DNA from: Thermosynechococcaceae cyanobacterium Okahandja
GTDB taxonomy: Bacteria > Cyanobacteriota > Cyanobacteriia > Thermosynechococcales > Thermosynechococcaceae
Direction of reading: 5' to 3'
DNA length: 64,000 nt
Assembly (NCBI GenBank): GCA_041530395.1
Contig: CP136945.1
Span: 1,302,001 to 1,366,000, forward strand
The notes beneath the pieces are model-generated. The model was not told the DNA's origin, ran no database searches, and saw only the letters and a list, made by a program, of their open reading frames with translations. The position numbers and the translations under genes were made by a program. Shown piece after piece: positions 2,837 through 53,900 of the stretch (positions are counted from its first letter, which is position 1; each line of letters starts with the position of its first letter).

Positions 2837-5074
<2,238 letters not shown>

Positions 5075-5091
5075 TTAGAGCAAGTTAGAGC
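5075..5091. promoter_or_regulatory. Direct heptamer repeat upstream of katG
   Basis: TTAGAGC occurs twice with start points 10 bases apart (5075 and 5085), one helical turn, about 80 bases upstream of the katG start. This spacing suits side-by-side binding of a regulator on one DNA face. I know of no named cyanobacterial site with this sequence, so function is a guess. The rest of the 5,000-5,270 gap shows nothing else I can name. Confidence 0.25.
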
Positions 5092-5270
5092 GAATTTTTG
5101 ACGGAAAACGATGGCTGCTCCACCACACCAAGGGATAATTGGCTCCACCCTCCATTGACCGCCGGTTTGAAGGGGAGCATGTGTTTATGATAGTCGTAAG
5201 GGTATGTATAGATTGGTTTGTTAAAACCTTCTACATAATTCTGGCGCTGTGATTGAGGACGTTAACTCGT

Positions 5271-5807
5271 ATGGAAGGTGCATTGCCTACCGTCTATTTG
5301 GGGGTGCTCATTGTCTTGTTGGGAGTCTCGGCGTGGTTTGTGGTGCGGCAAATTATTAAAACCCGCCGCATTGAAACCAGCATGGCGCGGCTCCAGCGCA
5401 AACTCAAGCAAGAACCGGGTACAGCGCAAGAGTACTTTGAGCTAGGGAGCATCTATCTCAATAAAAAGTTAGCGAGCCAAGCCATCCCCCTGCTACAGAA
5501 AGCGCTAAAGGCGGCGGAAAACGAAGGGGAAACCTACCTTGCCCCCATTTATAATGCCCTTGGCTATGCCTACTTCATTCAGGAGCAGTACGACTTAGCC
5601 ATTCGCCACTACAAAGAGGCACTCAAAAATCAGCCTGCCTACGTCACTGCCGCCAATAATCTCGGGCACGCCTACGAAAAGAAAAACCTTGCACAGCCTG
5701 CGCTGGAAGCCTACCAGCACACCCTCAAGTACGATGCCAACAATGGGATTGCCCAGCGACGGGTGAGTTCTCTGAAAAAGCGACTGAGCGGTGTTGCAGC
5801 CTCCTAA
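5271..5807 (+). CDS. Membrane-anchored TPR protein, Ycf37-like photosystem I assembly factor
   Basis: A 178-residue protein with one N-terminal membrane anchor (LPTVYLGVLIVLLGVSAWFV), a basic linker (RQIIKTRRIE), and about three tetratricopeptide repeats, for example YFELGSIYLNKKLASQAIPL, YNALGYAYFIQEQYDLAIRH and ANNLGHAYEKKNLAQPALEA. This layout and length match Ycf37, a thylakoid protein known in cyanobacteria and some chloroplast genomes to assist photosystem I assembly or stability. TPR repeats mediate protein-protein contacts. I start at ATG 5271; a TTG at 5253 in the same frame is possible. It ends directly against the convergent kinase gene, with no spacer. Family assignment is likely but made by eye. 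Confidence 0.7.
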   Translation: MEGALPTVYLGVLIVLLGVSAWFVVRQIIKTRRIETSMARLQRKLKQEPGTAQEYFELGSIYLNKKLASQAIPLLQKALKAAENEGETYLAPIYNALGYAYFIQEQYDLAIRHYKEALKNQPAYVTAANNLGHAYEKKNLAQPALEAYQHTLKYDANNGIAQRRVSSLKKRLSGVAAS

Positions 5808-7331
5808 CTACCGCCACTGCCCTATGCCTAGGACAAAGATCACGATCCGTGCCTCTTGGACTGTTGTCAGGCCATGAGCCAGCTTTCGAGCTAAGAAGCG
5901 GAACATCGTATCGAGGCACACCTCCCGCGAGAACTGCCCGGCTCCGGTACCCAGCAACGGGAAGGCGATCGACCGTAGGCCCAGCGTATCCGCGTGGTAG
6001 AAGCAGGACTCCATAATTTCATTGAGCAAGTCGCGGCTCGGGTTGACCCACTCATCTTTCCATTGACCCATTGTGATGCCGTGCAGCACGAAGCGAGCCG
6101 GGAGTGAACCCGCCGGCGTAACCACCGCCCGACCGGGACGAACCGGCGCGTATTGGCGAGCCATCTTACGGTAGTCAGGGCCGGCGACCCTAGACAGTTG
6201 AGCCGAGACACCTCCACCCATCGACAGCCACTCATCGTCAGAACTCACGAGCGCATCCACTCGCTGCTCAACCAAGTTACCAAAACCGATGGTGCAAGTC
6301 CGTCGGTTCATGAAGTGGTATGCATCCGGCTCCGGCAGGTTCTCTGGACGACCCCCGAGGTAGATTGGTTTTCGCGCTCGATACCGTTTCTGATGTCGGG
6401 TCACTTCTGGGTGTTCAGACTGATCCCACGGCGTTTTAGGACTAGGTTGCAGGTGAGTAGCGATGTCGGCAAAACTCTGGAACCGGTCGCGGGGCGACTT
6501 CGCCAAGCACCGCTCAAGGCAGTCGTTTAACCGTTCAGACAATAACGGGTTACGTGACTTCGGTGAGATGAGAGGCTCAGATTTGTGGCTCAGCAAAATG
6601 GAGAACCACGAGTTCCCCGAGAAGGGGGGGTGCTGGGTGAGGATATGGTAGAACGTCGCCCCATAGCTGTAAATATCGGCTCGGGTGTCAACTGTTCGTG
6701 GGTCTTCGGCCTGTTCAGGAGCCATGTAGTGGGGAGTACCCATGAACTCGCCCGTGAGGGTGAGGGGATCGCTATAGTTCGTGCGCGCCAGACCAAAGTC
6801 CGCGACGTATGCCTTGTCTTCCGCATCGATCAGGATATTAGATGGCTTTAGATCGCGGTGAACGATGCCTTGTTCGGCTACGGCCTTCATCCCTTCACAG
6901 ACGTGTAGCATCCAGCGAAGCACGCGCTCTTCGGGGAAAGGTGCCGAAGTCGTGCGCAGTAGCTTGCCCAGATCGCTCCCAGGGATCCAAGACATGACGA
7001 GCATGGCATGACCTGTAGGTAGGATCTCAAAGTCTTGGAGTGAGACCACATGAGGGGAATGGATGCCAGCGAGCACCTGCGCCTCACGTCTAAAGCGGTC
7101 TATGCCATTGCTGAGGGTGTGAAACTTGACCGCAACAATCTGATCGAGCAGGCGGTGCCTTCCACGGAAGACCACACCCATGCTCCCCCGCCCGACTTCT
7201 TCCAACAACTCATACCGTGACGATAGTCCGGTCTGCTCGAAGGCAGATCGAGCAGTGCGAGGATCAGTGACTATTGAGTTTGCCACTGTCTCCGCCTCCA
7301 TGGACGAATGGTTGAACTCCCCTGCCGTCAT
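5808..7331 (-). CDS. Ser/Thr protein kinase fused to a C-terminal macrodomain
   Basis: A 507-residue soluble fusion. Residues about 40-295 are a Hanks-type kinase with every key motif: glycine loop GRGSMG (47-52), VAVK lysine (69), HRDLKPSN (158-165), DFG (178-180) and APE (204-206). After a basic linker (about 300-340), residues about 347-507 look like a macrodomain, the fold that binds or hydrolyses ADP-ribose: a SSDDEWLSMGGGVS loop (363-376) in place of the usual AANxxLxxGGGV, and PLLGTGAGQFSRE (458-470). Catalytic loops of both halves appear intact. There is no membrane segment, unlike many bacterial receptor kinases. It stands alone, convergent with the Ycf37-like gene. Substrate is unknown; a signalling or immunity role in NAD/ADP-ribose sensing is speculative. 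ATG 7301 is an alternative start. Confidence 0.88.
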   Translation of the reverse strand: MTAGEFNHSSMEAETVANSIVTDPRTARSAFEQTGLSSRYELLEEVGRGSMGVVFRGRHRLLDQIVAVKFHTLSNGIDRFRREAQVLAGIHSPHVVSLQDFEILPTGHAMLVMSWIPGSDLGKLLRTTSAPFPEERVLRWMLHVCEGMKAVAEQGIVHRDLKPSNILIDAEDKAYVADFGLARTNYSDPLTLTGEFMGTPHYMAPEQAEDPRTVDTRADIYSYGATFYHILTQHPPFSGNSWFSILLSHKSEPLISPKSRNPLLSERLNDCLERCLAKSPRDRFQSFADIATHLQPSPKTPWDQSEHPEVTRHQKRYRARKPIYLGGRPENLPEPDAYHFMNRRTCTIGFGNLVEQRVDALVSSDDEWLSMGGGVSAQLSRVAGPDYRKMARQYAPVRPGRAVVTPAGSLPARFVLHGITMGQWKDEWVNPSRDLLNEIMESCFYHADTLGLRSIAFPLLGTGAGQFSREVCLDTMFRFLARKLAHGLTTVQEARIVIFVLGIGQWR

Positions 7332-7444
7332 TGACCTTGGATGATGAATAATACAGATAATTTAGCGAATCTGGCCGATAGTCGAGTGCAGCCATTTGAT
7401 TGTATTGTGTAAACTTTTTTGGCGATCGCCCACTCGATGGGTTC

Positions 7445-7609
7445 CTATAATTCTTGATTGCCTTGGGGCGTATCCCGCCACACCAGTAAATGGTGGGGTC
7501 GCCAACCGTTTTGGGGCGTAGCACTACCAGAGACTTCGAGTTGATGGAGCCACTCCCATTCAAAGAACGTCGTTGTCAGGTGGATGGCAATGACATCTAG
7601 GGTGATCAT
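7445..7609 (-). CDS. Small ORF of unknown function (54 aa)
   Basis: An ATG-started 54-codon frame on the minus strand, product starting MITLDVIAIHLTTTFFEWEW. It is rich in aromatic residues and lacks a signal peptide. It could be a small protein or the remnant of a larger gene. The rest of the 7,332-7,879 gap is A/T-rich (notably 7,680-7,760) and I see nothing else in it, so this may be the scar of an insertion beside the kinase gene. Confidence 0.25.
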   Translation of the reverse strand: MITLDVIAIHLTTTFFEWEWLHQLEVSGSATPQNGWRPHHLLVWRDTPQGNQEL

Positions 7610-7879
7610 TCGGTGCCTGATTGTGCACAGCTTTCTTTTTGTCGAGAAATGGGTTGGGCATCAGAAATTAATAGAGATCGAGGAAAAGTTAACTTGTCTT
7701 TCTTCAAAGAAAAATTAAAATTTTATTAAAAAAACTGTTTTATCCTAAATAAGGAAAGACTTAACAAGGAGACTTCTGAGCTTGTAAATTCATTCTCATC
7801 TCATAGTAAAGGGTAAGCCTTTGAGACACTTCGATGGCTGCAAAATTGGCTGTTGATTTTAGCCTAGTTCCTAAAACCC

Positions 7880-9013
7880 TCAATCTGACTCACGGGAAAG
7901 CTCGTCAGACTCTGTCACCTCAGGCTTTGCCTCAAGCTGTTGCTTTGCCTGTTGCCAAAGGGTTTCTAGCTCGGCCAAGTTATAGTCCTTAAGGGGGCGG
8001 TCAATGCTGGCTTCGATGAGTTCTAGGCGCTGGATAAAGCGGCGGTAGGTTTCCTGCAGGGCTTGCACGGGGTCAAGCTGGCACCAGCGGGCAAGGTTAA
8101 TGACGCTAAATAGCAGATCCCCCAACTCGGCGGACTGTTGTTCGGGGTTGCTCTGGAGTAGGGCTTCTTGGAACTCTGCTAGCTCTTCGTAGAATTTTTC
8201 CCACGCGCCACTAATCGTTGGCCAGTCCAAGCCGGAGCGGCTCGCTCGCTCACCAATTTTAATGCCGGCAATTAAGGGCGGCAGGGTTCGGGCATAGTGT
8301 TGCAATGTTTGGCTGAGGGGCGAGGAGGCATCCTCACCTTTTTCGCTGGCTTTAATGTGTTCCCACTGCTCCCGCACTTCTTGGGCGGTGCTTAGCTCTA
8401 CGCTGCCAAAGACATGGGGATGACGGCGAATGAGTTTTTCGGTAATGCCTTGGGCAACCTCTGCTAGGGTGAACTGATCGGCTTCTGCGGCCAGTTGACT
8501 TTGCAAAACGACCTGCAGCAGTAAGTCTCCTAGTTCTTCGGCAATGGCCTGTGACTCCCCTTCCTGTAGGGCATGAACCACTTCGTAGGCTTCTTCCAAG
8601 ATGTAGGGAATCAGGCTGGTAGGGGTTTGCTGCAAGTCCCATGGGCAACCGGTTTCAGGATGGCGAAGCTGCTGCACAACGCTCATCAACCGCTGCATTT
8701 GAGCTAGAGCAGGGGGAAGTGGCGGCGGCAGGTAAAGCTGGAGGGGGCACTCTGCTGTGGTGAGGGTCTCAAGGTCGGCAAGGGAAAGCGCGGTTGCTTG
8801 GTGTTGAGGGTTAATGAGGGTCACGGTGGTGGTTGCTGGCCAGTGGGATTGCAGTTGCTTGCTCAGTTGGTGAGCGATCGCCACGGTAGGAATCTGCGTA
8901 ATTAACCCCCCGTGCGGTAGGGAGGCGACTTCTTCAAGGGCGCTGGCCGCAGTAAGAACACAAAGAGGGCTGGCCATGGCGGACTGATCCGTGATTGCTG
9001 CCCAATTCACCAC
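7880..9013 (-). CDS. mazG: Nucleoside triphosphate pyrophosphohydrolase MazG
   Basis: A 377-residue MazG. Two all-alpha MazG repeats are visible: the first around residues 130-210 with LEEAYEVVHAL and EELGDLLLQVV (the ExxE...ExxD magnesium-binding pattern), the second around 265-320 with EELAEFQEAL and ELGDLLFSVINLAR. MazG cleaves NTPs to NMP and pyrophosphate, removing aberrant nucleotides and, in E. coli, affecting the stringent response. The first ~105 residues are an extra low-complexity segment where some relatives (YabN type) carry a tetrapyrrole methylase domain; I cannot recognise that domain here. The GTG start at 9013 overlaps the stop of the upstream epimerase gene by one base, suggesting co-translation. 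ATG at residue 12 is an alternative. Confidence 0.92.
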   Translation of the reverse strand: MVNWAAITDQSAMASPLCVLTAASALEEVASLPHGGLITQIPTVAIAHQLSKQLQSHWPATTTVTLINPQHQATALSLADLETLTTAECPLQLYLPPPLPPALAQMQRLMSVVQQLRHPETGCPWDLQQTPTSLIPYILEEAYEVVHALQEGESQAIAEELGDLLLQVVLQSQLAAEADQFTLAEVAQGITEKLIRRHPHVFGSVELSTAQEVREQWEHIKASEKGEDASSPLSQTLQHYARTLPPLIAGIKIGERASRSGLDWPTISGAWEKFYEELAEFQEALLQSNPEQQSAELGDLLFSVINLARWCQLDPVQALQETYRRFIQRLELIEASIDRPLKDYNLAELETLWQQAKQQLEAKPEVTESDELSRESD

Positions 9014-9966
9014 TACTCGGTAACCCCATTCCTGTTTGTCCCCCTATTGTAACTTTTGAGCAGGTCCGTCAGCGCTACAGTGGCGTTGGGGTACTGAAAC
9101 TCAAATCCACTGGCGAGGGTGCGCTCCGGGAGCACTCGCTGTCCTTTGAGCACAACGTCTGCCGCTTCCCCTAGGAGTAGCTGCAAGGCCACAGCAGGGA
9201 CGGGCAGCCACGAAGGACGGTGCATGACCTCGCCTAAGACACGGCAGAACTCGGCCATGCGCAGGGGTTCTGGGGCGGTGGCATTATAGACCCCCTGCAT
9301 GGCTGGCTGTTCTATGGCGGTCAAAATGAGCCGGACTAAATCTTGCTGGTGGATCCATGAAAACCACTGCTGTCCTGAACCGAGGGGGCCGCCCATGTAA
9401 AGGGTAAAGGTGGGCAACAGTTTTGCGAGCGCCCCTTGATGCCCTAGCACAATCCCAAACCGCAGGATGACCCGTCGCAAACCAAGGTCTGTTACAGCTT
9501 GGGCGGCGGCTTCCCAGTCTTGGCACACCCGCGCCAGAAAGTCGGATCCTGCGGCGTTAGTTTCCACAAAGGTTGCGGTGTCACTGGTGCCGTAGTAACC
9601 AATGGCCGAGGTGGAGACGAGAACGTTGGGGCGTTCCTTTGCGGTGGCGATCGCCTGTACCAGTTGTTGGGTTCCCAGAACGCGGCTGTCGTAAATTTCT
9701 TGCTTGCGGCTGGCGGTCCAGCGACCGTTGGCGAGGGGTTCCCCTGCCAAGTGAATGACGGCATCCGCCCCATCGACCGCCTGATACCAGTCCCCCGCGA
9801 CTTTGGGGGTGTAGACAACAGTGGTTATCTGGGCATTGCTCAGCCAAGGTTTCGGTACCCGCTGGGGTGTCCGCACTAGGGCAGTGACGTGGTCGTTGCG
9901 GTTCACTAATGCCTGAACCACCTGCTGCCCCACAAAGCCGGTTGCTCCGGTCACCACAACCTTCAT
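9013..9966 (-). CDS. NAD-dependent epimerase-like protein of the YfcH/SulA (TIGR01777) family
   Basis: A 317-residue SDR-fold protein. It begins MKVVVTGATGFVGQQVV, a Rossmann nucleotide-binding glycine motif. Further signatures are ADAVIHLAGEPLANGRWT and VSTSAIGYYG, typical of the TIGR01777/YfcH family, and a C-terminal DUF1731-like part (VPAVALQLLLGEAADVVLKGQ). In cyanobacteria and plants this family includes the so-called SulA/GC1 proteins implicated in cell or chloroplast division; the enzymatic substrate is unknown. The start at 9966 overlaps the upstream ChuX-like gene by ATGA, and its stop overlaps mazG, so the three form an operon. The longer frame upstream is rejected because it lies inside the ChuX-like gene. 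Confidence 0.85.
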   Translation of the reverse strand: MKVVVTGATGFVGQQVVQALVNRNDHVTALVRTPQRVPKPWLSNAQITTVVYTPKVAGDWYQAVDGADAVIHLAGEPLANGRWTASRKQEIYDSRVLGTQQLVQAIATAKERPNVLVSTSAIGYYGTSDTATFVETNAAGSDFLARVCQDWEAAAQAVTDLGLRRVILRFGIVLGHQGALAKLLPTFTLYMGGPLGSGQQWFSWIHQQDLVRLILTAIEQPAMQGVYNATAPEPLRMAEFCRVLGEVMHRPSWLPVPAVALQLLLGEAADVVLKGQRVLPERTLASGFEFQYPNATVALTDLLKSYNRGTNRNGVTE

Positions 9967-10388
9967 AGGGCCTCCACGCTGGGTTGCCATTCTTGTCCGT
10001 ACTGCTCCCGCAGCGCCTGCCAAGCGGCGACCTGTCCGTCGGCATACTCTCCGGGTTTGCCCCACTGCAAAAAGGCACTCAGCACTGATTTATCGTTGGC
10101 ATCGAGGAAACGGATGGCGTAGGTGGGAAAGTTACCGCGCTTGGCTTGGCCTTCTTCAAAGCGGATGGTGGCCACTTGATCCATGTTCAGGTGAAACTCA
10201 AAGTCATCGCTGTGCATATTGGCATAACGACCTTTGGGTAACTCGGCGTAGAAAATCTTTTCTAGGGGCGATCGCACCTCGAGGACGGCAATATCGTTGG
10301 TGACCACCAGACGTAGGAGTCCTAGACTGCCACAGTCGGCTAAAAATTGCTGAAAGGAGTGTTGGGGACGGGTTGATGCTGTGGTCAT
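9963..10388 (-). CDS. ChuX/HutX-like heme-utilisation family protein
   Basis: A 141-residue soluble protein, MTTASTRPQHSFQQFL onward. The central part (FHLNMDQVATIRFEEG, then RGNFPTYAIRFLD and FLQWGKPGEY) looks like the small cyanobacterial proteins annotated as ChuX/HutX heme-like-substrate binders. I recognise the pattern but cannot verify the fold. Such proteins are thought to bind heme or a related tetrapyrrole in the cytosol. It is the first gene of a three-gene minus-strand operon with the epimerase (ATGA overlap) and mazG. The ATG at 10388 is preferred over the longer frame because the extra eight residues are unlike the family. Confidence 0.6.
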   Translation of the reverse strand: MTTASTRPQHSFQQFLADCGSLGLLRLVVTNDIAVLEVRSPLEKIFYAELPKGRYANMHSDDFEFHLNMDQVATIRFEEGQAKRGNFPTYAIRFLDANDKSVLSAFLQWGKPGEYADGQVAAWQALREQYGQEWQPSVEAL

Positions 10389-10484
10389 CGTTAGGATTAA
10401 AAACCTCCACAATACCTCGGCCTAGTCTGGAAATGTTCAAGGGTGACTCACTGTTCTGGCCAAGTATCACTCAGCGCAGTAACC

Positions 10485-10513
10485 TAAAGATTAAAGATCA
10501 AGTAAAGATCAAG
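10485..10513. repeat. Short iterated repeat in a divergent promoter region
   Basis: TAAAGAT is followed directly by two perfect head-to-tail copies of TAAAGATCAAG (10492-10502 and 10503-10513). The array sits between the divergent starts of the ChuX-like gene (10388) and the small membrane protein gene (10555). Such helically phased A/T-rich iterations often are regulator binding sites. No known regulator is assigned. Confidence 0.5.
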
Positions 10514-10554
10514 ACAGCCGCTCCCTAGTTATTTTACCGCTTGCTTTGCTACCG

Positions 10555-10854
10555 ATGCCTCCGACCTCCCCACCCCCCGATGAGCTACGAGAGCGACTGC
10601 GCTCAGAGGCGCAAGCCCCCTATCGCGGTCTGCGGCGGGTTTTTTATGGGGTTTTTGCCGCATCGGGATGCATGGGCGGTTTTATTCTTGGCCTGAAGTG
10701 GCTCGCCGGGACAGCGCCAGCCGATGTGGGCTGGAGTTTAGTATTACAGATGGGGGTGGTGGCCCTGATGGTAGTTCTGTGGCGCTGGGATCAACCGCGA
10801 TCGCCCCGTCGCCCTAGCGGCGCTGCGCCATCAAAAAGCGATCCTGCTGATTGA
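10555..10854 (+). CDS. Small two-pass membrane protein (DUF3493-like)
   Basis: A 99-residue protein with a proline-rich N-terminus, the segment ERLRSEAQAPYRGLRRVFYG, then two hydrophobic helices (about residues 37-55 and 64-82, the latter LVLQMGVVALMVVLWRW). The charged entry sequence followed by two membrane helices resembles the DUF3493 family found in cyanobacteria and plastids; function unknown. ATG 10555 is preferred to an in-frame TTG at 10546. Its last 41 bases overlap the end of the convergent prmC, so the basic C-terminal tail is encoded inside prmC. Confidence 0.55.
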   Translation: MPPTSPPPDELRERLRSEAQAPYRGLRRVFYGVFAASGCMGGFILGLKWLAGTAPADVGWSLVLQMGVVALMVVLWRWDQPRSPRRPSGAAPSKSDPAD

Positions 10855-11737
10855 GATCCGGCAGGATTTGCACGGCCTGATACCCATGGGTGGCCGTCGC
10901 GATCGCCATCGCCGCCTCTCCTTGGCCTGCCATCAGCTCAATAAACAGCCAACCCTGGGGCAGCAGATACTCCGGCGCGGTTTGCACCAAATGACGGACG
11001 GCGGTGAGGCCATCCCTGCCGCCATCGAGGGCAAGGTGTGGTTCATGGTACTGTACTTCCGGTTGTAGGTGAGCCAGCAGGGCCGTAGGAATATAGGGCG
11101 GGTTACTGACAATGCCCTGCACCTGACCTTTGAGGTGGGCGATTGGCTCAAACCAGTTCCCTTGATGGCAGTGAATGCGCTCCACCATTTGGTAGCGCTG
11201 AATGTTGATCTGAGCCACCGCAAGGGCATCAGGACTTTGATCCACCGCGTGTACCTGAACCTGTGGCCAGAGGTGCGCCAACCCTAGGGCGATCGCGCCG
11301 CTGCCGGTACCTAAATCTAACCAGTGTCCCTGCTGCTGCTGCCGTGGTACCCATCGAGCTAGCCAATCCAGCAGCTCCTCCGTTTCGGGGCGGGGAATGA
11401 GCACACCGGGGGTCACCGTTAATTCCAGATGCCGCCAGTAGGCACGCCCGATTAGGTATTGCAGCGGTATTCGTTCTTGCCAGCGTTGGCGCCAGCGATC
11501 GCTGAGTGCCTCAAGGGGTAGCCTCAACGCGACATTGGGCTGACTCTGGTAGGTGTGCAGCGCCAGATCGAGGGGTGTTAAGTCACTCAGGGCAAGCAAA
11601 AACCGTTTGAGTTCAGCGCGACCGGTGTTTTTTTCTGCCTCGGGAATGCACTCACAGGCCCATTGCCACCACTGCCACAGGGCATGACCGCTAACTGAAC
11701 ATAATTGAGACTTGTTTTCTGAGGATACTCGTATCAC
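10814..11737 (-). CDS. prmC: Release factor glutamine methyltransferase PrmC
   Basis: A 307-residue SAM-dependent N5-glutamine methyltransferase that modifies the GGQ motif of peptide chain release factors. The SAM-binding motif DLGTGSGAIALGL and the catalytic NPPYIP motif (VSNPPYIPTALL) are clear, as is the family's IPRPETEELLDWL. The N-terminal release-factor-binding helical domain is present. The start is a GTG at 11737; its first ~25 residues overlap the divergent coiled-coil gene, so the true start may lie a little further in. The 3' end overlaps the convergent membrane gene by 41 bases. Confidence 0.93.
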   Translation of the reverse strand: MIRVSSENKSQLCSVSGHALWQWWQWACECIPEAEKNTGRAELKRFLLALSDLTPLDLALHTYQSQPNVALRLPLEALSDRWRQRWQERIPLQYLIGRAYWRHLELTVTPGVLIPRPETEELLDWLARWVPRQQQQGHWLDLGTGSGAIALGLAHLWPQVQVHAVDQSPDALAVAQINIQRYQMVERIHCHQGNWFEPIAHLKGQVQGIVSNPPYIPTALLAHLQPEVQYHEPHLALDGGRDGLTAVRHLVQTAPEYLLPQGWLFIELMAGQGEAAMAIATATHGYQAVQILPDLNQQDRFLMAQRR

Positions 11738-12149
11738 AATAGCCCTAGATCATTCTGTGCCCTTATTCACTGTGGCAGATTTTCAGGATCAGCTTCAACG
11801 CCTCCAAGAGCAACTGCAAAAGGCGCAGGCGCGAGCCAAAGAGCTAGAGCAGGCGGCCTTGCCCACGGCGGCGGTTGAGTTGCCATCAACCACTGAACCC
11901 CCTGATCTGCCAGACTCTCCTGAGTGGAGCGATGAAGTAGCCCGCATTCAATCTCGGGTGCAAGCCCTGACCTCCGTAACGGAACTGCAACAGCAACTCA
12001 TCGAGGCATTAATCGAAAACCAGCGGTTACAGTTAGCCCTTGAGCAAGAGCGGCAACACCATGCCCGTACCCGCCAAAGCCTAATTACTGCCCTAGGGGA
12101 TGCCCTCGATACCCTTAAGCAACGGCGGCGCTCCCCTAAGTCACCCTAA
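11712..12149 (+). CDS. Coiled-coil protein of unknown function
   Basis: A protein of up to 145 residues dominated by two coiled-coil stretches (about residues 22-50, FQDQLQRLQEQLQKAQARAK, and 85-140, LQQQLIEALIENQRLQLALE) separated by a proline/acidic linker. There is no signal peptide or membrane segment. I do not recognise the family; it looks like the small conserved coiled-coil proteins of unknown role in cyanobacteria. The TTG at 11712 is weak, and GTG codons further in are alternatives. The 5' end overlaps the divergent prmC start, and the 3' end overlaps the convergent exporter gene by nine bases. Confidence 0.6.
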   Translation: MFSEDTRITIALDHSVPLFTVADFQDQLQRLQEQLQKAQARAKELEQAALPTAAVELPSTTEPPDLPDSPEWSDEVARIQSRVQALTSVTELQQQLIEALIENQRLQLALEQERQHHARTRQSLITALGDALDTLKQRRRSPKSP

Positions 12150-46106: not shown

Positions 46107-46437
46107 GGCGCGATCGCCACCACCTACCCACGAAGGATGCATTGCCAGCGCCGATAATGCCAAGCCCATCCTAACCTAGGGAAACACCTCAAAACGGCTT
46201 GGTAGCCTGGTTAGTTTAGTGCGAGGTGGAAAAGCGTTGGGGCAATTTCCAAGGCTCTGATGTTCCAGCCCTTCTCACTAGCCACCACGCCTTGTGTAGC
46301 ATAGTAGGATTGATTTCCCACCCCTCATAATCTCACGACACCCAGTATGAATTCGACGAGCCACTTTATAGGAGGCTGCGTTAGGAAGCCTTACAATCAA
46401 TCAAATCACAGAGCAAGACATCATCTTGAAACCGTAC

Positions 46438-46580
46438 TCAAATATCAATAGTATAGTCTTTACCAATCGTGTAGAGAATACTGTAGGAAAACCTGCGAGC
46501 CATGCACCGTCGAACATCTTCATCAATGGTAGTATAGCGAGGTGGAGATTCTCAAATCCGATAGACTACATCTTCAATTA
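46438..46580 (-). pseudogene. Decayed ParE/RelE-type toxin gene remnant
   Basis: Read on the minus strand, the frame gives PPRYTTIDEDVRRC then MARRFSYSILYTIGKDYTID followed by a stop at 46438. It is preceded, past an in-frame TGA, by IEDVVYRI. The pattern VRRCxxRRFxYSILYxI is the core of ParE/RelE family toxins, where it normally continues into an AVMH-type ending that is missing here. The N-terminal half is also absent. No antitoxin gene is seen beside it. This is therefore a broken toxin-antitoxin remnant; recognition is by pattern only. Confidence 0.7.
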
Positions 46581-46635
46581 CAGTTTATAAACGCTTTCAG
46601 CAGATTTATCAAAATCGCTAAGATTTTCAGCACCC

Positions 46636-47220
46636 CTATGGCCACAATCCTGCTTGTTGAAACACCTGTTGCGCCGTTAATTGCAAATCAGGCAGAACTT
46701 CATCTGTTAATAGTGTCTCGCCTGTAAACGTGCGCGGCGCGGCATCTGGATAAAACACCGTAATACTCTTCGCCTGCGGATCAACCACCCATACCCGCAA
46801 CACCCCAGCCGCTAGATAATCTGTTGCCTTTCCCACTATCGTGCCAAAACTTTGATCCGGCGAAATAATTTCAATTGCCAACTCTGGAGCTATTGGACAC
46901 GGCCCATCTTCCAACCAATCCCGTGGTAGGCGATCGTAGGAAATATACAACACGTCTGGAATCGGCACCCAATCTTGTCCTTGGCGCATTAACGTTACTG
47001 CCCACTCAATCGCGACGTCGCCCCGCTCCTGACACCAATGCTCCAAAATATAAAGTAGAGTTTTCTGGGTTCTTGAATGAAATCGCTTCGGTGACATTTT
47101 CGCAATAGCTTGTCCATCAAGTAACTCGTAGCCCGTCTCACCCTCCGGCAGCGCAAGGTATTCGGCTAGGGTAAGGGGCTTCGCGGGGGGTGCGATACTA
47201 GGTGACAGAGTCATGGTCAT
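46636..47220 (-). CDS. Uma2-family (DUF820) putative endonuclease
   Basis: A 194-residue protein of the Uma2 family, extremely multiplied in cyanobacteria, with a predicted PD-(D/E)XK nuclease fold. Landmarks are LTLAEYLALPEGETGYELLDGQ, WVPIPDVLYISYDRLP, the active-site-like stretch PELAIEIISPDQSFGTIVGKATDYLAAGV (ExI...K) and VWVVDPQAKSITVF. Whether Uma2 proteins cut DNA in the cell is not established; a transposon or defence association is suspected. The start ATG is at 47220 (MTMTLSPSIAPPAKP). It lies inside the accessory region and is preceded by a tandem 12-bp repeat. Confidence 0.88.
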   Translation of the reverse strand: MTMTLSPSIAPPAKPLTLAEYLALPEGETGYELLDGQAIAKMSPKRFHSRTQKTLLYILEHWCQERGDVAIEWAVTLMRQGQDWVPIPDVLYISYDRLPRDWLEDGPCPIAPELAIEIISPDQSFGTIVGKATDYLAAGVLRVWVVDPQAKSITVFYPDAAPRTFTGETLLTDEVLPDLQLTAQQVFQQAGLWP

Positions 47221-47221
47221 C

Positions 47222-47245
47222 GATGCGAGAGAAGATGCGAGAGAA
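47222..47245. repeat. Tandem 12-bp repeat upstream of the Uma2 gene
   Basis: GATGCGAGAGAA occurs twice head to tail directly before the Uma2 start codon. It could be replication slippage or a regulator site. The remaining gap to 47,526 contains only a weak 64-codon minus-strand frame that I do not believe. Confidence 0.6.
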
Positions 47246-47526
47246 TAAGTAAGTGCCGTTAGTTGCAGTCTAGCGGATCGTTCCCATTGCCAGAACGCGA
47301 TCGACCGTTAGGGTGAAGTCCGGCAAGATCGGCGACGCGATCAGTTTCTTGTTAAAGTTAGAGCTTTGTACCAGCCTTTTTCCCACTGCACGTCCACAAG
47401 AGGCTTTAGGGTTACAGCTAAACGAGGTAGAACATTCCAGAGCGCTGCGGGTATCCGCACTAGGGCAATGATTATGTTACAATCTGTACTGTATCTTTGA
47501 TGCCATTGGTGTTCCGGTTGTGGTAA

Positions 47527-47540
47527 GCCTAACAATTAGG
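47527..47540 (+). other. GCCTAAC-type inverted core 5' of the parA-like gene
   Basis: GCCTAACAATTAGG is a near-palindrome carrying GCCTAAC, the same heptamer core found at the restriction-modification gene boundaries (52,669-52,675 and, as GTTAGGC, 50,109-50,115). It lies 35 bases before the parA-like ATG, as cassette boundaries often do. It may be the remnant of a recombination site. The sequence is clear; the role is speculative. Confidence 0.4.
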
Positions 47541-47575
47541 TGGACACAGCATCCCATTGTCAAACTAGGTTGACT

Positions 47576-49060
47576 ATGGCTGCTGGTAAGGACTTAATAC
47601 GTTTGCACTTTCACAAGCAATGGGTGGCTTTGCTGGATCGTGTTGCTGAGTGTAACACTGAGAAATCGCTAGAAGATCAGGTTATTCTGCCCCTCCTAAA
47701 GTTACTCGGTTATGAGCAGGGCGATTTTGTGCAACAGGCTCCGCTAGGCCGGAAACGAGTAGATTTTCTAGTCAAAGCCCAACAAAGGTCACCCTGTCCC
47801 CACTACTTGGTTATCGAGGTCAAGGCTCCTTCCCAGATGCTTCTTTACAAAAGCTGGCAACTGCGGCAGTATTTGCGTGACTCAGGGAGTATTTTTGGTC
47901 TCTTGACCAACGGCAAACAGTTTCAAATTTTCTATAATGACGGTGACACCATTCATGCGCTCTGGGAGTTTACACAAGCACAACTGCGTCAAGACTATCG
48001 GGTTCTAACGGCTCTGCTTCTGCGCCGTAACTGTGATCTAGTTTTGAACGCGTTTAAAATCAGCCATCACCAAATTCACAACCGCCTGCGGCAGTTCATG
48101 GCTCAACTTTCACCTGAGACCACAATTTTATCACTGTCGCAAAGTGTCAATTCGCCATCTACGAAAAACTATCCTAAACGCCCAATGATTATCACTGTTT
48201 TTAATAACAAGGGGGGGGTTGGCAAAACAACCCTAACCATTAACCTAGCTGTCGCCCTTGCCCAACTAGGTAAGCGTGTTTTACTAATCGATATTGATGC
48301 TCAGGCCAATCTGACTACAGGTTTAGGTATTGATCCCCTAGAAGATGTTGAAAAAGCTGGCCGGAAGGATATTACGCACCTTTTGACGGAACCCAGACTG
48401 GTTATTGGTGATGTTATTATGAAGCGCAGGTGGGGTAGCACTAGATTAGATGTCATCCCATCTCATATTCGTCTCAGCTCCATGGAAAATCAATTAATTC
48501 AACTGGTGGATAGTGATCGTCTTCTGGCGAGAAAGCTTAGAGAACATGACTATGATTTCGTCTTTATTGACCCTCCTCCGTCGTTTGGGAAAGTTAACCG
48601 GATTGCCCTGATGGCTTCAGCGGGGGTTTTAATCCCGACTCAACTGTCTCCCTATCCGATTCGAGCACTAGAATTTGTCTTAAGCCAGGTTGAGGAGGTT
48701 AGTCAGTTCCGAGAATCACCACTGCCCATCATTGGTATAGCCGTAAGTATGTACGATCGCCAATCTACAGCACTTAATCTATTGATGAAAGAAGAGCTAT
48801 ATGGTCGTCTGAATAACTTACCCGGAGGGAGTCAAGTTTCGATTTTTCCTGAGTCTAGTTGGATACCACGACTCAATGTGATTTCTAGATCACAGAATCA
48901 GGGCTGTCCTCTTTTGGCATTAACTTCTACAGATTTATCAAATAGTTTGAGTGCTTCTGATCAAACCTCTCTCGAAAATGCCTTACAAGCTTATGATAGA
49001 TTGGCTCAAGAATTTTTGCATATCGTTGCAGCTAAAATTACTTCTTCTGTCGAATCATGA
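47576..49060 (+). CDS. HsdR-N-type nuclease domain fused to a ParA ATPase
   Basis: A 494-residue fusion. Residues about 1-160 resemble the type I restriction HsdR N-terminal nuclease: LEDQVILPLLKLLGYEQGDF, then Asp63 in KRVDFLVKA and Glu81-x-Lys83 in YLVIEVKAPSQ, a complete PD-(D/E)xK pattern, and FGLLTNGKQFQIFYNDG. After a linker, residues about 203-490 are a ParA/Soj ATPase: deviant Walker A NKGGVGKTTL (211-220), DIDAQANLTTGLG, then FVFIDPPPSFGKVNRIALM. The start ATG is 47576. The ParB-like gene follows 62 bases later. A stand-alone ParA in partition systems lacks the nuclease. This could serve plasmid-like segregation, or act as a defence module in which nucleotide-gated ParA controls DNA cleavage; the latter is inference. 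Confidence 0.85.
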   Translation: MAAGKDLIRLHFHKQWVALLDRVAECNTEKSLEDQVILPLLKLLGYEQGDFVQQAPLGRKRVDFLVKAQQRSPCPHYLVIEVKAPSQMLLYKSWQLRQYLRDSGSIFGLLTNGKQFQIFYNDGDTIHALWEFTQAQLRQDYRVLTALLLRRNCDLVLNAFKISHHQIHNRLRQFMAQLSPETTILSLSQSVNSPSTKNYPKRPMIITVFNNKGGVGKTTLTINLAVALAQLGKRVLLIDIDAQANLTTGLGIDPLEDVEKAGRKDITHLLTEPRLVIGDVIMKRRWGSTRLDVIPSHIRLSSMENQLIQLVDSDRLLARKLREHDYDFVFIDPPPSFGKVNRIALMASAGVLIPTQLSPYPIRALEFVLSQVEEVSQFRESPLPIIGIAVSMYDRQSTALNLLMKEELYGRLNNLPGGSQVSIFPESSWIPRLNVISRSQNQGCPLLALTSTDLSNSLSASDQTSLENALQAYDRLAQEFLHIVAAKITSSVES

Positions 49061-49122
49061 ATGAGGTGATAGGCTATTGATCATCATTTAGCCCACTGAT
49101 TAAACCTAATCCATTGATAACT

Positions 49123-49845
49123 ATGGTTGACTATCAAGAGCGCCGTGATCTCATCCGCAAAAGTCTGAAAATTCAGCCTATCAGTCATGGTCAAGTACAT
49201 ACTTGTACTGTTGGCTTCCAAGCGCAACCCCAGATTTCTCAAGGGCGCTACGAAGAACTGCGATCGAGCCTAGAAAACCACGGTAGTAATTTAATTCCGA
49301 TTGTGGTTCGCCGCAGCGAGAGCTTAGGCGATGACAAAGAGTATGAAGTGATCTATGGGGCTGATTGGGTCAAGGTAGCAGAAGATATCGGTATTGAAAT
49401 GCTCTGGGCTTGGGTGTTTGATCTCAGTGATACTGAGGTTGCGGCTACGTGCGAAGAGCTAAGCCGATTACTAGAGGTTCCAATCATTGATCCAATGGAT
49501 CAAACTGGTAACGCCGCCCCACCCCCAACAGCACCAACCGGAGAAATGGGAGCTAGCGCGGTCACAGCCGTGCAGGAAATTGTTGCTGCCTTAGAGCGTT
49601 TCGTGAAGGTTCTGAGTGATACGGTCAATCAAGGAGCCGAAATCACGATTAAGATTCAATCTAAAAGCCAGATCGATCAGGAGAGACAACTCCAGCTTAA
49701 GCGCGAGGCTCTGCAAAGTCGGTATAAATTAATGACAGCTACTCAGCTTAAGAATCAGGCAAAGGAGTTTGGTATGTCTTTCAGTGGGAATGCCAAAAAG
49801 GATGATTTGATTACAGCGCTTGTCGCCCACGAATTAAGTGTCTGA
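49123..49845 (+). CDS. ParB-like protein with C-terminal SAP-like domain
   Basis: A 240-residue protein. The N-terminal ~110 residues look like a ParB/sulfiredoxin-type domain: GRYEELRSSLENHGSNLIPI followed by VVRRSE, then YEVIYGADWVKVAEDIGI in the place of the usual GxRRWxA. A proline-rich linker and a helical segment follow. The last ~40 residues, MTATQLKNQAKEFGMSFSGN followed by AKKDDLITALVAHEL, match a SAP/Rho-N-like DNA-binding helix pair. No helix-turn-helix of classic ParB is evident. ATG 49123 is chosen; TTG 49114 is possible. It partners the nuclease-ParA gene just upstream in one operon. It may give the system DNA site recognition; this is inferred. Confidence 0.7.
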   Translation: MVDYQERRDLIRKSLKIQPISHGQVHTCTVGFQAQPQISQGRYEELRSSLENHGSNLIPIVVRRSESLGDDKEYEVIYGADWVKVAEDIGIEMLWAWVFDLSDTEVAATCEELSRLLEVPIIDPMDQTGNAAPPPTAPTGEMGASAVTAVQEIVAALERFVKVLSDTVNQGAEITIKIQSKSQIDQERQLQLKREALQSRYKLMTATQLKNQAKEFGMSFSGNAKKDDLITALVAHELSV

Positions 49846-50045
49846 TCCTCCCAGCTATGTGGTGATAAGTCCAGCCTATAGCCTGTAACCTAGTCAAAGT
49901 AAACTTTTCAAACACTTGATATCGCAAAATTTTTGCATCTCGTCTTTTCACCCTAAACCCAGAAGAGCCTGTTATGCAAACCCTCCCACCGATGCCAGCG
50001 CCCCTTCACCGACAACCTCGCACACTCACGACCCTAGCACTGGCA

Positions 50046-50115
50046 ACATAACGGCCAGCATCAGCGGCGGCGTGCAGCGCAGCGGAGCGGCGTCAGGTAG
50101 AAGCGCGTGTTAGGC
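50046..50115 (-). other. attC-like integron recombination site
   Basis: Read on the minus strand, a 70-base element starts GCCTAAC (fits the attC R'' consensus RYYYAAC) and ends GTTATGT (R' consensus GTTRRRY, one mismatch). The TAAC/GTTA cores pair perfectly. It begins 8 bases after the stop of the restriction-modification gene, the usual place for a cassette's attC. The middle is very G/C-rich (GACGCCGCTCCGCTGCGC region), but I do not see a strong perfect hairpin, so the site may be degenerate. On the plus strand it reads as an ACATAAC...GTTAGGC element. Confidence 0.6.
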
Positions 50116-50123
50116 CGCGTAAT

Positions 50124-52628
50124 TTACTCATCGTATGGGCCAAGAAAACGTTCACCGTTGAAATGTATCAGATGGCTAGATTCTTCAGCCACCCATACTT
50201 CTGTTTCCCAAGCAATTTCCTGAAGATATTTCATCATCACCTTTCGCGTTGGAAATGCAGTTACAAATACCAAAGGAGCTTTGCTATATCTGAACAACTG
50301 CTTGAGTTCATTGTGGCGTTTAATGTCAATGGGGCCGTGGCTAGTGACTGCTTCGATAAGTACAAGCCATTTTTTGTCTTTGAAATAAACCACTACGTCA
50401 GGCATTTTACTGTGTTCGTCAACAATAACACCTAACTGTGCAAGGATATGTTGCTCATATACCCTGAGTTTATCGCCTGCGTCACCGACGTAAACAACCC
50501 AGCCTTCAGGGGTGAAGCGAGGACAAAACTGTTCGATAATTTGTTTTATTAGAGCATTCTGCCCGCCTGCGGTAATTCTGACTTCTCTACCATCTGGCAG
50601 TTTTACTGGTATGAGAGTCATTTCGCGTTCTTTCTCACGCAATTTGCGCAATTCTTGTGAATTCTTGAGGTAGGCTCTCAGATTCCTGTCCCACTCCCTT
50701 GTTCTGTATGTGCGAATCACCTTGAGAAGACCAGTATCAACTTGATACTTTGTCTTTGGGCTGTTGACGGGTCTTGCAATATCATCTGGATTAGCAATAA
50801 CTAACCCCATTTGCACAAATTGGTGAACTGTAAAACGCCGAACTGTCTCGCGGGTGTTCGGCGCGTAAGAAATTCCGAAGTGATCACGGAAATAATCCAT
50901 CATTTCGGTAATGCCGCGCAAGGGAGCTGAGGCATTACTCCAATCTGTATCGGGCTTCATATCAAGCAAAGCCAGCAAAGTCAACGCAGAACGTTGGTTA
51001 AGTTGTGCTCTTGGTACTTGGAGGGATCGCAGGATATCAAGGGCCTCTTCAATTCTCTTTTTCGCTTTTACGTCAGTATTTGTAGTATCCATTCCTAGTA
51101 TTCCTAAGACTATTTGATCAATTTCTTCTTCTTTAGGAAATTCATCCCCTATTTTCTCGCCTATTGCCATCAACTGGGATAATGATGGGTACCTGAGATT
51201 GCGCAGGTCTGTCGCGTTTACCTGTGTATGTCCACTGAACTGCCTGAAGTATTCATCCACTAAGGTCGAATTGAGAAAAGCGGCCAAGCCTTTTGCTACT
51301 AGAGGGGGCAGCCCTTTCCCGTTTTGATGATAGTAATTTAGATGATTTTCGATGCCTATGAATTCAGCGTTTAGACGAGTAGGATCACATATGGCTGCAA
51401 CGACGCGCCTTTTTTCTTCTTTTGCCGAGAAGCGTTTAACCAAAACATACCAACCAGAAGGCACAAACAGGCTGGTAGTTTCTTCTGCTAATCTTATAGC
51501 AAAGGGTTTTCTATTTTGTCGATTAGGCCAAGCAACATAGCCTTGTAAAAAGTTACTCGGATAAATCAAAGGGATTGTTTCCGCATCTGGGTTTTCTGTC
51601 AGAAAACCAGCGGCGCGAAAGTCAACAACCTTGCCAGTGGAAACAGTGATGCCTAATTCATCAAGCGAGGCAGAGAGGCTACGAGCTTTCTGCCCAATTC
51701 TCTGCCTGAGTCCATCAGTAACGATATGTATAAACGAATTGGGATCATCGGGATAAACAAGTTGATCGTATTCAACTTCACGAACGGTTATGGATGGGTC
51801 ATTGGGATCGGCGCTTGACGAAATTGCCACTTTCTCTTGTTGACGGGCTCTTGTAGCGTGAAGAATTACGTTTTCTTGTAAAACATTATCTTCCTCAAAA
51901 GCCCGATCTCTATAGTCAAAAACGTGGATATGATTTATGGACATCGTTCTTAGAAGCACTTCCCTAAACGGGAGAAAATAGGGGCCGTTGCAAAAGCTTC
52001 TTGGCGTAATTGCAACAAGCTCTCCATTGGACTCTAGCAATCTGATTGTCAGCCAAAGAAACGCCGCATACAGATTAGTGGTCTCAATCCCAACCTTTTG
52101 CAGAAGACGCCGTGTGGTAGAGTGAGCGTTTATCTTTCTGTAGGGAGGATTGAGAATAGCGGCATTAAAAGACTTGCAAGAAGCGAATAGAGTGTTTCCA
52201 CTTAAAGCATCCACAGATGCCCTGATGTAATCATCTTGTATAACTTTATATTCAAAATTAATCTTTTCCTGGCGGCATACTTCTTGGCAATAGCCAAGCG
52301 TTATGTGTAAGTACTCTGTCAAAATCGGATCGATTTCATAGGCAGTTATTGTCATAATTGACGGCTTTGGATTCCATTGACAAGCTTCAGCAATGAATGC
52401 CGCTGATAACGAACCAACACCCGCGCCCGCGTCAAGAAGATTCAGCGTGTGCGGTCTCTTGGCAAACATACTTGCCATAAAACACGCTATCTTCTTGGGA
52501 GTAAAAAACTGCCCTTTTTCTGCACGATCCGCTGTTAATCTCTGGCTAGCTTCCAAGCGCAGAAAATCTACTCGTTCAAGAAGATTGTCACGCTGTATAG
52601 GTTCTACTAACAGGCTTCTAGTTTCCAT
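50124..52628 (-). CDS. N6-adenine methyltransferase fused to a PstI/BsuBI-type restriction endonuclease
   Basis: An 834-residue single-chain restriction-modification enzyme. The methyltransferase half has GQFFTP (39-44), SAM-binding DAGAGVGSL (66-74) and catalytic NPPYRK (160-165), the gamma-class N6-adenine order seen in Eco57I-like enzymes. A middle region is likely target recognition. The last ~145 residues match the BsuBI/PstI endonuclease C-terminal domain: YVGDAGDKLRVYEQ, MPDVVVYFKDKKWLVLIEAV then TSHGPIDIKRHNEL, with the PD...E catalytic pattern intact. The recognition sequence cannot be read off. Codon use is A/T-shifted relative to the core genome. Placed between attC-like and GTTAGGC core sites, with the start 41 nt inside one and the stop 8 nt from the other, it looks like an integron gene cassette. 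No separate methyltransferase or specificity gene accompanies it. Confidence 0.9.
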   Translation of the reverse strand: METRSLLVEPIQRDNLLERVDFLRLEASQRLTADRAEKGQFFTPKKIACFMASMFAKRPHTLNLLDAGAGVGSLSAAFIAEACQWNPKPSIMTITAYEIDPILTEYLHITLGYCQEVCRQEKINFEYKVIQDDYIRASVDALSGNTLFASCKSFNAAILNPPYRKINAHSTTRRLLQKVGIETTNLYAAFLWLTIRLLESNGELVAITPRSFCNGPYFLPFREVLLRTMSINHIHVFDYRDRAFEEDNVLQENVILHATRARQQEKVAISSSADPNDPSITVREVEYDQLVYPDDPNSFIHIVTDGLRQRIGQKARSLSASLDELGITVSTGKVVDFRAAGFLTENPDAETIPLIYPSNFLQGYVAWPNRQNRKPFAIRLAEETTSLFVPSGWYVLVKRFSAKEEKRRVVAAICDPTRLNAEFIGIENHLNYYHQNGKGLPPLVAKGLAAFLNSTLVDEYFRQFSGHTQVNATDLRNLRYPSLSQLMAIGEKIGDEFPKEEEIDQIVLGILGMDTTNTDVKAKKRIEEALDILRSLQVPRAQLNQRSALTLLALLDMKPDTDWSNASAPLRGITEMMDYFRDHFGISYAPNTRETVRRFTVHQFVQMGLVIANPDDIARPVNSPKTKYQVDTGLLKVIRTYRTREWDRNLRAYLKNSQELRKLREKEREMTLIPVKLPDGREVRITAGGQNALIKQIIEQFCPRFTPEGWVVYVGDAGDKLRVYEQHILAQLGVIVDEHSKMPDVVVYFKDKKWLVLIEAVTSHGPIDIKRHNELKQLFRYSKAPLVFVTAFPTRKVMMKYLQEIAWETEVWVAEESSHLIHFNGERFLGPYDE

Positions 52629-52980
52629 CGCCTAAATTTCACTACTTCGTGAAGAGTGGAACACAGCCGCCTAACTAGTAATTAGGCCGCGATTGGCAGC
52701 ATAACGCTTGAACGCTTGACATAAGGCCAAGGCCTTGCCATAACTACTTGCTTGCAGTATGCAATTATAACCCTCAAGGTGTCAAACACGGCTAATCGCT
52801 TGATATACAAATGTTTACGACGGCGGCGTATGCCTTACTGGATAAGACTTTTAGCTTCTGGATAAGCAGTGATTATAAGGAATCTGGCGGGTATGCACTC
52901 CCCCTTAGAAATCCTGAAAGTTAGGTACAGAAAAGCTTTGAGTGCTAAACTTAAAGGGGTGTTATACAGCCAGTTATGAG
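52629..52980. other. Control region between the integrase remnant and the R-M cassette (attI-like, with repeats)
   Basis: This gap between divergent genes has no ORF. It contains GCCTAACTAGTAATTAGGC (52,669-52,687), an inverted repeat that on the minus strand ends GTTAGGC, the presumed cassette boundary. Beyond it lie a near-direct repeat CTTGAACGCTTGAC and a palindrome AAGGCCAAGGCCTT. On the minus strand, TTGACA and TATAAT hexamers occur near 52,767-52,788 but are spaced too closely for a normal promoter. GTTAGGT occurs at about 52,919. The layout (integrase one way, cassette the other, recombination core between) is that of an attI region. Confidence 0.5.
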
Positions 52981-53900
52981 ATGGAACCGTTACCTCCGGA
53001 GCCCCCAAAACGCAAGCTTCTCGACCAAGTGCGAGATGCGATAAGGCTCAAACACTATAGCTCACTATAGCTATCGTACTGAGCAAAGCTATGTGGCTTG
53101 GATTCGTCGTTATATCCTTTTTCATAACAAACGCCACCCTAAGGATATGGGAACATCGGAAGTCGAAGCCTTCCTAACCCATCTTGCGGTTGCTGAAAAC
53201 GTTGCCGCCTCGACCCAAAATCAAGCCCTAAGTGCGCTGCTTTTCCTCTATCGGCATGTGCTCTAGCAACCTCTACTAGGGGACATCGAGGCGATTCGCG
53301 CCAAACGTTCCAAACACCTGCCCACAGTTCTGACAGTTACCGAGGTCAAGGCACTCCTTGGGGCGATGACGGGTACGCCTCAACTAGTCGCTGAATTGCT
53401 TTATGGTGCAGGACTACGCCTCAGTGAAGGGTTGCGCCCACGAGTGAAAGACATTGACATTGGTCAGCAGCAAATTATTGTAAGGGATACCAAGGGTCAC
53501 CAGGATCGGGTAACCATGCTCCCCCAACGAGTCATTGATCGGCTTCAGGCTCATTTAGTGATGGTTAAGCACCAACATCAGCAGGATCTTCAGCAAGGCT
53601 ATGGTCAGGTGTATCTCCCCTATGCCCTTTTTGTTCAAAAGGCAGTCAAGGCTGCTGTCAGACGGATAGAAATTAATAAAATAAATAAAGTCCAGTTGTC
53701 ATACCCTTCGCCACAGCTTCGCAACTCACTTGCTGCAAAATGGCTATGACATTCGCACGGTACAGAAGTTACTGGGTCATCAGGATGTGAGAATAACAAT
53801 GATCTGTCTCCATGTTCTGACTGGTGGCACTGGTGGCGTAAGGAGTCCCTTGGACGATGTAAGGTTGCAACATGACGGATATGCTGGTGAAACTCTATGA
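52981..53900 (+). pseudogene. Decayed integron integrase-like tyrosine recombinase
   Basis: From ATG 52981, conceptual translation after repair gives [51 protein letters not shown], the catalytic-arginine region LLYGAGLRLSEGL, then [20 protein letters not shown] and KLLGHQDV, ending in [13 protein letters not shown]. These phrases are typical of integron IntI/XerCD-type integrases. It is broken by: a 10-bp tandem duplication (53053-53072) that shifts frame; an in-frame TAG at 53264-53266; loss of about 45 residues between LPYAL and VQKAVKAAV, covering the IntI-specific insert; a one-base frameshift near 53,698; and Tyr-to-Cys replacement of the nucleophile (TMICLHV for TMIYTHV). It diverges from the R-M cassette. 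Confidence 0.88.
53053..53072 (+). repeat. 10-bp tandem duplication disrupting the integrase
   Basis: CACTATAGCT is duplicated head to tail. Deleting one copy restores the frame [13 protein letters not shown] expected of the family, so the duplication is a clear inactivating slippage event. Confidence 0.9.

Follow-up and report, generated by a model that had tools for sequence, protein, structure and literature searches.

The ParABS systems (Soj/Spo0J, chromosomal and of plasmid type Ia) are close described counterparts of the two-gene locus analysed here, as in both a gene for a Soj-like ParA is followed by a gene encoding a ParB N-terminal domain. The locus differs from them in that its ParA bears a nuclease, the partner has neither the GERR box nor a helix-turn-helix and ends in a swappable helix-hairpin-helix (HhH) or SAP tail, and no parS was found. 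With GERR, helix-turn-helix and parS all missing, we rejected canonical ParABS partition as a reading of the locus. PadC of Myxococcus, which links ParA to bactofilins, likewise has a ParB_N fold that lacks a DNA-reading helix-turn-helix, and its structure (6ryk) is among the Foldseek matches of the partner; however, there is no nuclease-ParA fusion in the PadC system, and the tail of the partner described here is probably a DNA binder.

The nuclease resembles that at the N-terminus of HsdR from type I restriction systems (PF13588/PF04313) in its fold, its D...ExK residues and a QxxxY-type motif. Unlike HsdR, it is fused to ParA, and the pair includes no SF2 translocase, HsdM or HsdS. It also differs from restriction-modification systems at large, since there is no cognate methyltransferase in the operon and the restriction-modification gene found nearby is separate and on the other strand. 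A chromosome-segregation ATPase family is combined with a nuclease in Wadjet/MksBEFG plasmid defence too, as described in an excerpt of PMC10123090, but the likeness is by analogy only: Wadjet is SMC-type, with four genes and unrelated proteins, Pfam gave no SMC, kleisin or TOPRIM match in either gene of the pair, and carriers of the pair show no shortage of plasmid ParB genes. DndB and other ParB/Srx-fold proteins of defence loci share the ParB superfamily with the partner and may, like it, belong to conflict systems (PMC10853773, in excerpt); their partners are different, however, and no ParA-nuclease chain was found in that excerpt.

PADLOC returned only weak P-loop or nuclease-like matches for gene 1 and none for gene 2, and neither PADLOC nor NCBIfam holds a model for the pair as a unit, in keeping with an earlier note on this DNA that had put the pair forward as a candidate undescribed system. 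All of the domains are known; the nuclease-ParA chain, together with a ParB_N partner that lacks a helix-turn-helix and has swappable tails, is undescribed in these libraries and in the open-access full-text papers searched. We regard the pair as kin of the two-protein modules of ParA/ParB type and see a real possibility that it represents a new class of nuclease control.

Gene 1 joins a predicted nuclease to a ParA ATPase

The stretch of DNA analysed (the window) covers 64,000 nucleotides of the cyanobacterium Okahandja and is part of a single 2.82-Mb contig, and the pair is chromosomal. Gene 1 lies on the plus strand at 47576-49060 (ATG at 47576; open frame 47540/47576-49060) and encodes a single chain of 494 amino acids, in which a nuclease domain is followed by a helical segment and linker and then by a Soj-type ParA. 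The HsdR_N-type PD-(D/E)xK domain spans residues ~28-121 (47657-47938), as delimited by Pfam, residue conservation and the fold order of a model. HSDR_N_2 matched residues 41-121 with 27.4 bits for the isolated domain and 24.5 bits for the full protein, the Pfam cut-off being 25 bits; when the nuclease domains of 35 members were isolated, 34 matched HSDR_N_2 (PF13588), 30 matched HSDR_N (PF04313) and a few matched VRR_NUC. The codons of the predicted catalytic residues begin at 47660 (E29), 47762 (D63), 47816 (E81), 47822 (K83) and 47870 (Y99). The ParA core occupies residues 205-378 (48188-48709), where AAA_31 matches with an E value of 2e-44, and carries the Walker A sequence NKGGVGKTT, with K212 and K217, at about residues 211-219. 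The earlier note had described an HsdR-type domain with Asp63, Glu81 and Lys83 joined to a complete ParA in one chain, and in each respect it was correct.

The architecture is kept across 34 aligned orthologues, and none of them varies at E29, D63, E81, K83, Q95 or Y99 or in the NKGGVGK motif. A wider set of 93 full-length cyanobacterial fusions (74 distinct sequences, drawn from three subfamilies: subfamily 1, subfamily 2 and a plasmid-type form) retains E29, D63, E81, K83, Y99, K212, K217, D239 and D241 without exception. The N-terminal region has the fold, the conserved aspartate, the ExK motif and the helix-1 glutamate of an HsdR_N-type PD-(D/E)xK enzyme, and the ParA signature is complete, comprising a deviant Walker A motif (KGGVGKT), the catalytic aspartates and a Soj fold.

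An AlphaFold model of the gene 1 product (mean pLDDT 84.7) places a helix at residues 29-43, strands at 51-57, 60-66 and 78-82, a helix at 90-103 and a strand at 107-111. This helix-strand-strand-strand-helix-strand arrangement is the PD-(D/E)xK core order, so that the structure prediction suggested by the earlier note came out in favour of a nuclease, with the acidic residues kept in homologues. The second half of the chain matched Soj/ParA folds in Foldseek with E values down to 1e-15. Since the whole-chain Foldseek search returned ParA folds only, assignment of the nuclease fold rests on the order of secondary structure elements, the Pfam matches and the residues; a comparison of the nuclease domain with PDB sequences gave a single weak match, to the restriction enzyme BpuSI (E 0.04), with D and ExK aligned. 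The conserved architecture, the invariant residues and the core order of the model together argue that the fusion is not a chance reading. In close pairs the dN/dS of the nuclease was 0.04-0.21 in 10 of 11 informative comparisons and 0.63 in the other, with values of 0.17-0.82 for the linker and 0.02-0.21 for ParA. We conclude from the low nuclease ratios and the invariant residues that the predicted nuclease is under selection as an enzyme-like domain.

The partner has a ParB N-terminal fold and an exchangeable tail

A same-strand gene starts no more than 350 bp downstream of the fusion in 91 of 93 cases, with a median gap of 2 bp, and the two genes, already treated as a pair in the earlier note, form a conserved unit. 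In the window this is gene 2 (49123-49845, plus strand, ATG at 49123), which encodes a ParB_N-like protein of 240 amino acids. Residues 32-108 (49216-49446) constitute a ParB N-terminal (Srx-type) domain that scores 27.3 bits against ParB_N (cut-off 26.3 bits) and has the fold of ParB, Noc, KorB and PadC in Foldseek, although only ~100 residues of ParB are aligned. Residues 200-236 (49720-49830) form a tail of SAP/Rho_N type, matching SAP with 23.8 bits, just below the cut-off of 23.9 bits, and Rho_N with 17.4 bits. The GERR-type CTP-binding box is absent from the partner alignment, which has GADW (as here) or similar instead; subfamily 2 partners have GxxEYYAA at this position, and Pfam found no helix-turn-helix family in the partners. 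Thus the coupling of a ParB-like domain to a SAP-like tail, as first described, stands, but the sequence of gene 2 is not that of a working ParB.

The C-terminus of the partner is of three kinds (assigned by sequence and partly by eye): SAP/Rho_N, ComEA-like or related HhH, and a form with a TWENL motif that ends hairpin-like. All are probably small DNA-binding domains. At least 12 changes of tail are required on the fusion tree, and at two Nostoc loci (L028 and L029) the fusions share 96% and the ParB_N domains 93% identity, but the partner has a ComEA-like tail at one locus and a SAP tail at the other, with 24% identity over the last 60 residues. A switch between such similar fusions suggests that generic DNA tethers are interchangeable among partners, a turnover that would be analogous to that seen at recognition modules.

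The pair behaves as a mobile accessory cassette

The pair shares a low-GC, HIP1-poor island (46107-53800) with a Uma2 gene, a restriction-modification fusion and an integrase fragment. The GC content of the island is 0.45-0.49 as against 0.547, one HIP1 site is present in its 7.7 kb as against 54 in 46 kb, and the congeners examined have other genes after ftsX and lack the pair there. Pfam and PADLOC searches identified the restriction-modification gene (50124-52628, minus strand) as a BsuBI/PstI-type methylase-endonuclease fusion, an 834-residue single chain separate from the pair; the integrase fragment adjoining the pair is at 53366-53749. The chromosomal setting beside a restriction-modification gene and a recombinase, reported in the earlier note, is thus confirmed. 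Chromosomal sites across carriers also bear out its view that the pair is not tied to rep genes, and neither a non-nuclease N-terminus nor a constant association with rep genes and parS was found.

Neighbouring genes across loci are mostly housekeeping genes, and no methyltransferase or other third gene is conserved beside the pair at 37 loci. Enrichment in defence islands, which the earlier note had proposed to check, was rejected, because PADLOC families near the pair showed no excess over genes at least 4.5 kb away.

The search beyond cyanobacteria covered a pattern scan of one genome per species together with plasmid and viral collections; the scan gave ~36 close relatives, all of them cyanobacterial. 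Among 390 genomes sampled from the class, 42 contain a fusion of subfamily 1 or a fragment of one and 94 a subfamily 2 partner, the union being ~130 genomes, or about one third; some of the subfamily 2 pairs lack the nuclease. Most carriers have one copy. Nine of the 11 genomes of the genus carry the fusion, at three different sites, and the fusions of congeners, at the two other sites, are 42-44% identical to the window copy, the nearest relatives of which are in other families (62-69% identical). The GC content of the fusion is below that of its flanks in 59 of 59 loci, by a mean of 7 points, and in 24 of 50 it has the lowest GC content of any gene.

Depending on the genome, one and the same chromosomal site can hold subfamily 1 or subfamily 2, between flanking genes that are 60-96% identical, which is cassette replacement. 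It is seen at a zinc-ribbon/glycosyltransferase site (L028-L030 with subfamily 1, L095 and L214 with subfamily 2; flanks 86-96%), a desaturase site (L020, L024, L042 and L054 versus L088 and L089), a ParA/exonuclease-FtsK site (L026, L027, L031 and L032 versus L092, L099, L206-L208 and L213) and an ilvD site (L014 versus L090). We conclude that the pair behaves as a mobile accessory cassette, and there is a strong case that it is an accessory, fast-turning, DNA-acting system.

A second, unpaired partner of subfamily 1 type lies downstream of a complete pair in L024 (8304-9386), L088 (10896-11981) and L089 (10841-11932), and in L088 and L089 it adjoins a subfamily 2 pair. These unpaired partners are likely to be relics of a replaced cassette. 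Strict mutual exclusion of the two subfamilies, suggested by one match per genome, was withdrawn because a fusion of subfamily 1 and a partner of subfamily 2 type occur together in G024, G207, G327 and others.

A proposed DNA-surveillance nuclease switched by ParA

The reading that we prefer, with a probability of roughly 0.4, is that the two genes form an accessory cassette in which a nuclease carried by ParA and a DNA-tethered ParB-like partner act as a DNA-surveillance (innate immune) nuclease. As in the Soj/ParA family, ATP-bound ParA dimers would lie on DNA irrespective of its sequence. The partner, anchored to DNA by an HhH or SAP tail that can be swapped, would touch ParA through the ParB_N domain and a conserved N-terminal peptide. 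This contact, along with ATP turnover, would set the cutting state of the paired nuclease domains; partner-stimulated ATPase activity is expected from the ParA/ParB families, and metal-dependent cleavage from the HsdR family. Only DNA in an abnormal state, whether incoming, replicating phage or damaged, would be cut, the trigger for cutting and the foreign target being guesses.

Several features favour such a surveillance nuclease, namely the invariant catalytic set and ParA lysines, the low nuclease dN/dS, the presence of the partner beside almost every fusion, the mobility, cassette replacement and tail turnover, and the AT-rich island with its restriction-modification gene. In one genome a nuclease-helicase takes the place of the nuclease ahead of a ParA and a partner of this kind, as would suit an effector slot. 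Against it count the housekeeping neighbours without PADLOC excess, the lack of a modification gene to spare self DNA, and a 13-row clade that has ParA-ParB without the nuclease (see below). Of 73 carriers, 40 have canonical ParB genes, used as a proxy for plasmids, as do 31 of 80 non-carriers; the comparison is rough, as the non-carriers include small picocyanobacterial genomes. Carriers are thus not depleted in plasmid-type ParB, which speaks against surveillance and against a simple plasmid killer, and the suggestion in the earlier note that the pair destroys incoming plasmids finds no support in co-occurrence. With no plasmid depletion, no excess of defence families and sister pairs devoid of the nuclease, we treat immunity as a plausible hypothesis.

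More tentatively, it may be ParA, in place of a translocating helicase or SMC ring, that carries and licenses the nuclease, with a ParB-like adaptor picking the site by means of interchangeable tails, so that segregation machinery would have become an immune or quality-control nuclease. If the state of ParA does license cutting, a DNA nuclease would be governed by a diffusion-ratchet ATPase of the kind that normally positions DNA and organelles; we know of no nuclease that is controlled in this way. The system is widespread, usually single-copy and only two genes in size, and its natural variants, with tails swapped, the nuclease lost or a nuclease-helicase in its place, make the role of each part testable.

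The frame-split subfamily 1 pair of L212 (G327, 5045-11948) is in tandem with a subfamily 2 ParA that is followed by an HhH-tailed partner. This subfamily 2 ParA has at its N-terminus the last part of an SF1 helicase, the N-terminal domain of which is nuclease-like (ORFs 7321-8937 and 5740-7308, minus strand). The gene is broken, and its N-terminal effector appears to have been exchanged.

Nuclease loss, plasmid-borne pairs and alternative functions

Partition or DNA positioning is a serious rival, if a somewhat doubtful one: ParA and a DNA-bound partner would move or hold DNA or cargo, and the nuclease, since lost from some lineages, would be an aid, for example in separating linked copies. 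Apart from the ParA and ParB folds, this explanation draws on the ParA-ParB pairs without nuclease that are nested in nuclease-bearing groups. They arose about six times (five losses are forced by starred branches, and one case may be a start-site artefact), and one such loss led to a clade, now diversified, that accounts for 13 sampled rows with ParA-ParB kept. The nuclease is also missing once in subfamily 1, where the ParA and partner of L039 (7998-9608) directly follow an ileS-type gene. Repeated loss of the nuclease with the pair kept indicates that the ParA-partner core can be useful by itself, so that positioning or partition stays in contention as its role. Partition alone, however, leaves the strict conservation of catalytic residues unexplained, and no conserved parS-like site or other common palindrome was found in the upstream regions of relatives, where the earlier note had advised looking for parS-like repeats; the partner, moreover, has no helix-turn-helix or GERR box.

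Plasmid-borne forms bear on the same question. The best 5000 matching plasmid records contained no match to a subfamily 1 or 2 fusion that spanned more than 80% of its length; distant nuclease-ParA pairs, with D and ExK kept, are present on plasmids of Nostoc, Leptolyngbya and Pseudanabaena (L076, L201-L205). The smallest of these plasmids, ABRG53g (12.6 kb), has no annotated ATPase of this kind other than the fusion, and a CyRepA1 replication gene is aboard, as would suit a partition function. Some of the plasmids nevertheless carry other partition genes, those of Nostoc having ParM or a regular ParA-ParB. The closed one-contig carriers lack canonical ParB, which again would suit partition; but ParB above the curated cut-off was found in none of the 11 genomes of the genus, and two of these lack the pair as well, from which it follows that the pair is not needed for chromosome segregation.

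DNA repair or recombination, the other serious rival, we consider unlikely. The HhH or SAP tail and ParA would bring a structure-selective nuclease to sites of DNA damage or branching, which would be useful in polyploid cells. Tails of the HhH, SAP and Rho_N types bind DNA in a generic way, the E29-D63-E81-K83 set is also that of Holliday-junction resolvases of the PD-(D/E)xK superfamily, and the VRR_NUC matches, the stable residence beside housekeeping genes within lineages and the proximity of some loci to an exonuclease-PDDEXK-FtsK protein are all compatible with repair. Patchy presence, an AT-rich make-up and turnover of sites and tails are nonetheless unlike core repair genes, and the pairs that persist after losing their nuclease also speak against repair.

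Far less probable is an addiction-like device that enforces inheritance of a mobile element, with the nuclease harming cells or DNA that are without the element. The pair is indeed mobile, AT-rich, sometimes plasmid-borne and mostly present in one copy per genome, but it has no antidote gene and persists alone at chromosomal sites with no surrounding element, the three sites within the genus having no element genes in common. It is hardly credible that the fusion works as an ordinary ParA whose nuclease-like domain is dead and serves for DNA binding, since, even if the domain can be lost, its five key residues are kept in 93 of 93 fusions and D and ExK persist in the distant plasmid-borne forms.

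Pairs of ParA and a ParB_N-HhH protein without nuclease were seen in L245, L246, L248, L249, L251, L253-L256 and L258. A DUF262-like gene (named by eye) is directly upstream in L248 and adjoins the pair, on the other strand, in L246.

Repeats at the locus and recurrent neighbours

A 26-bp imperfect palindrome, CCATTGTCAAACTAGGTTGACTATGG, lies over the start codon of gene 1 (47554-47579). It is the sole copy in the genome and is missing from relatives, and it is a possible candidate for an autoregulatory operator. Related 24-nt sequences (75% identical) are present at both gene starts (47554-47577 and 49111-49134), the first within the palindrome. A 16-nt direct repeat, AATTTTTGCATMTCGT, occurs near the end of gene 1 (49011-49026) and, 917 bp away, just past gene 2 (49928-49943), and may be due to chance or be an insertion scar.

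At L026 (11519-17077) the pair is accompanied by genes for a ~860-residue protein with 3'-5' exonuclease, PDDEXK_1 and FtsK parts, which matches the C-terminus of SspH in PADLOC, a ~680-residue KAP-type ATPase and a winged-helix-like protein. Parts of this set recur in L011, L021, L023, L031, L036, L042, L092, L099, L207 and L213, and it is possibly a separate, undescribed DNA-processing system.
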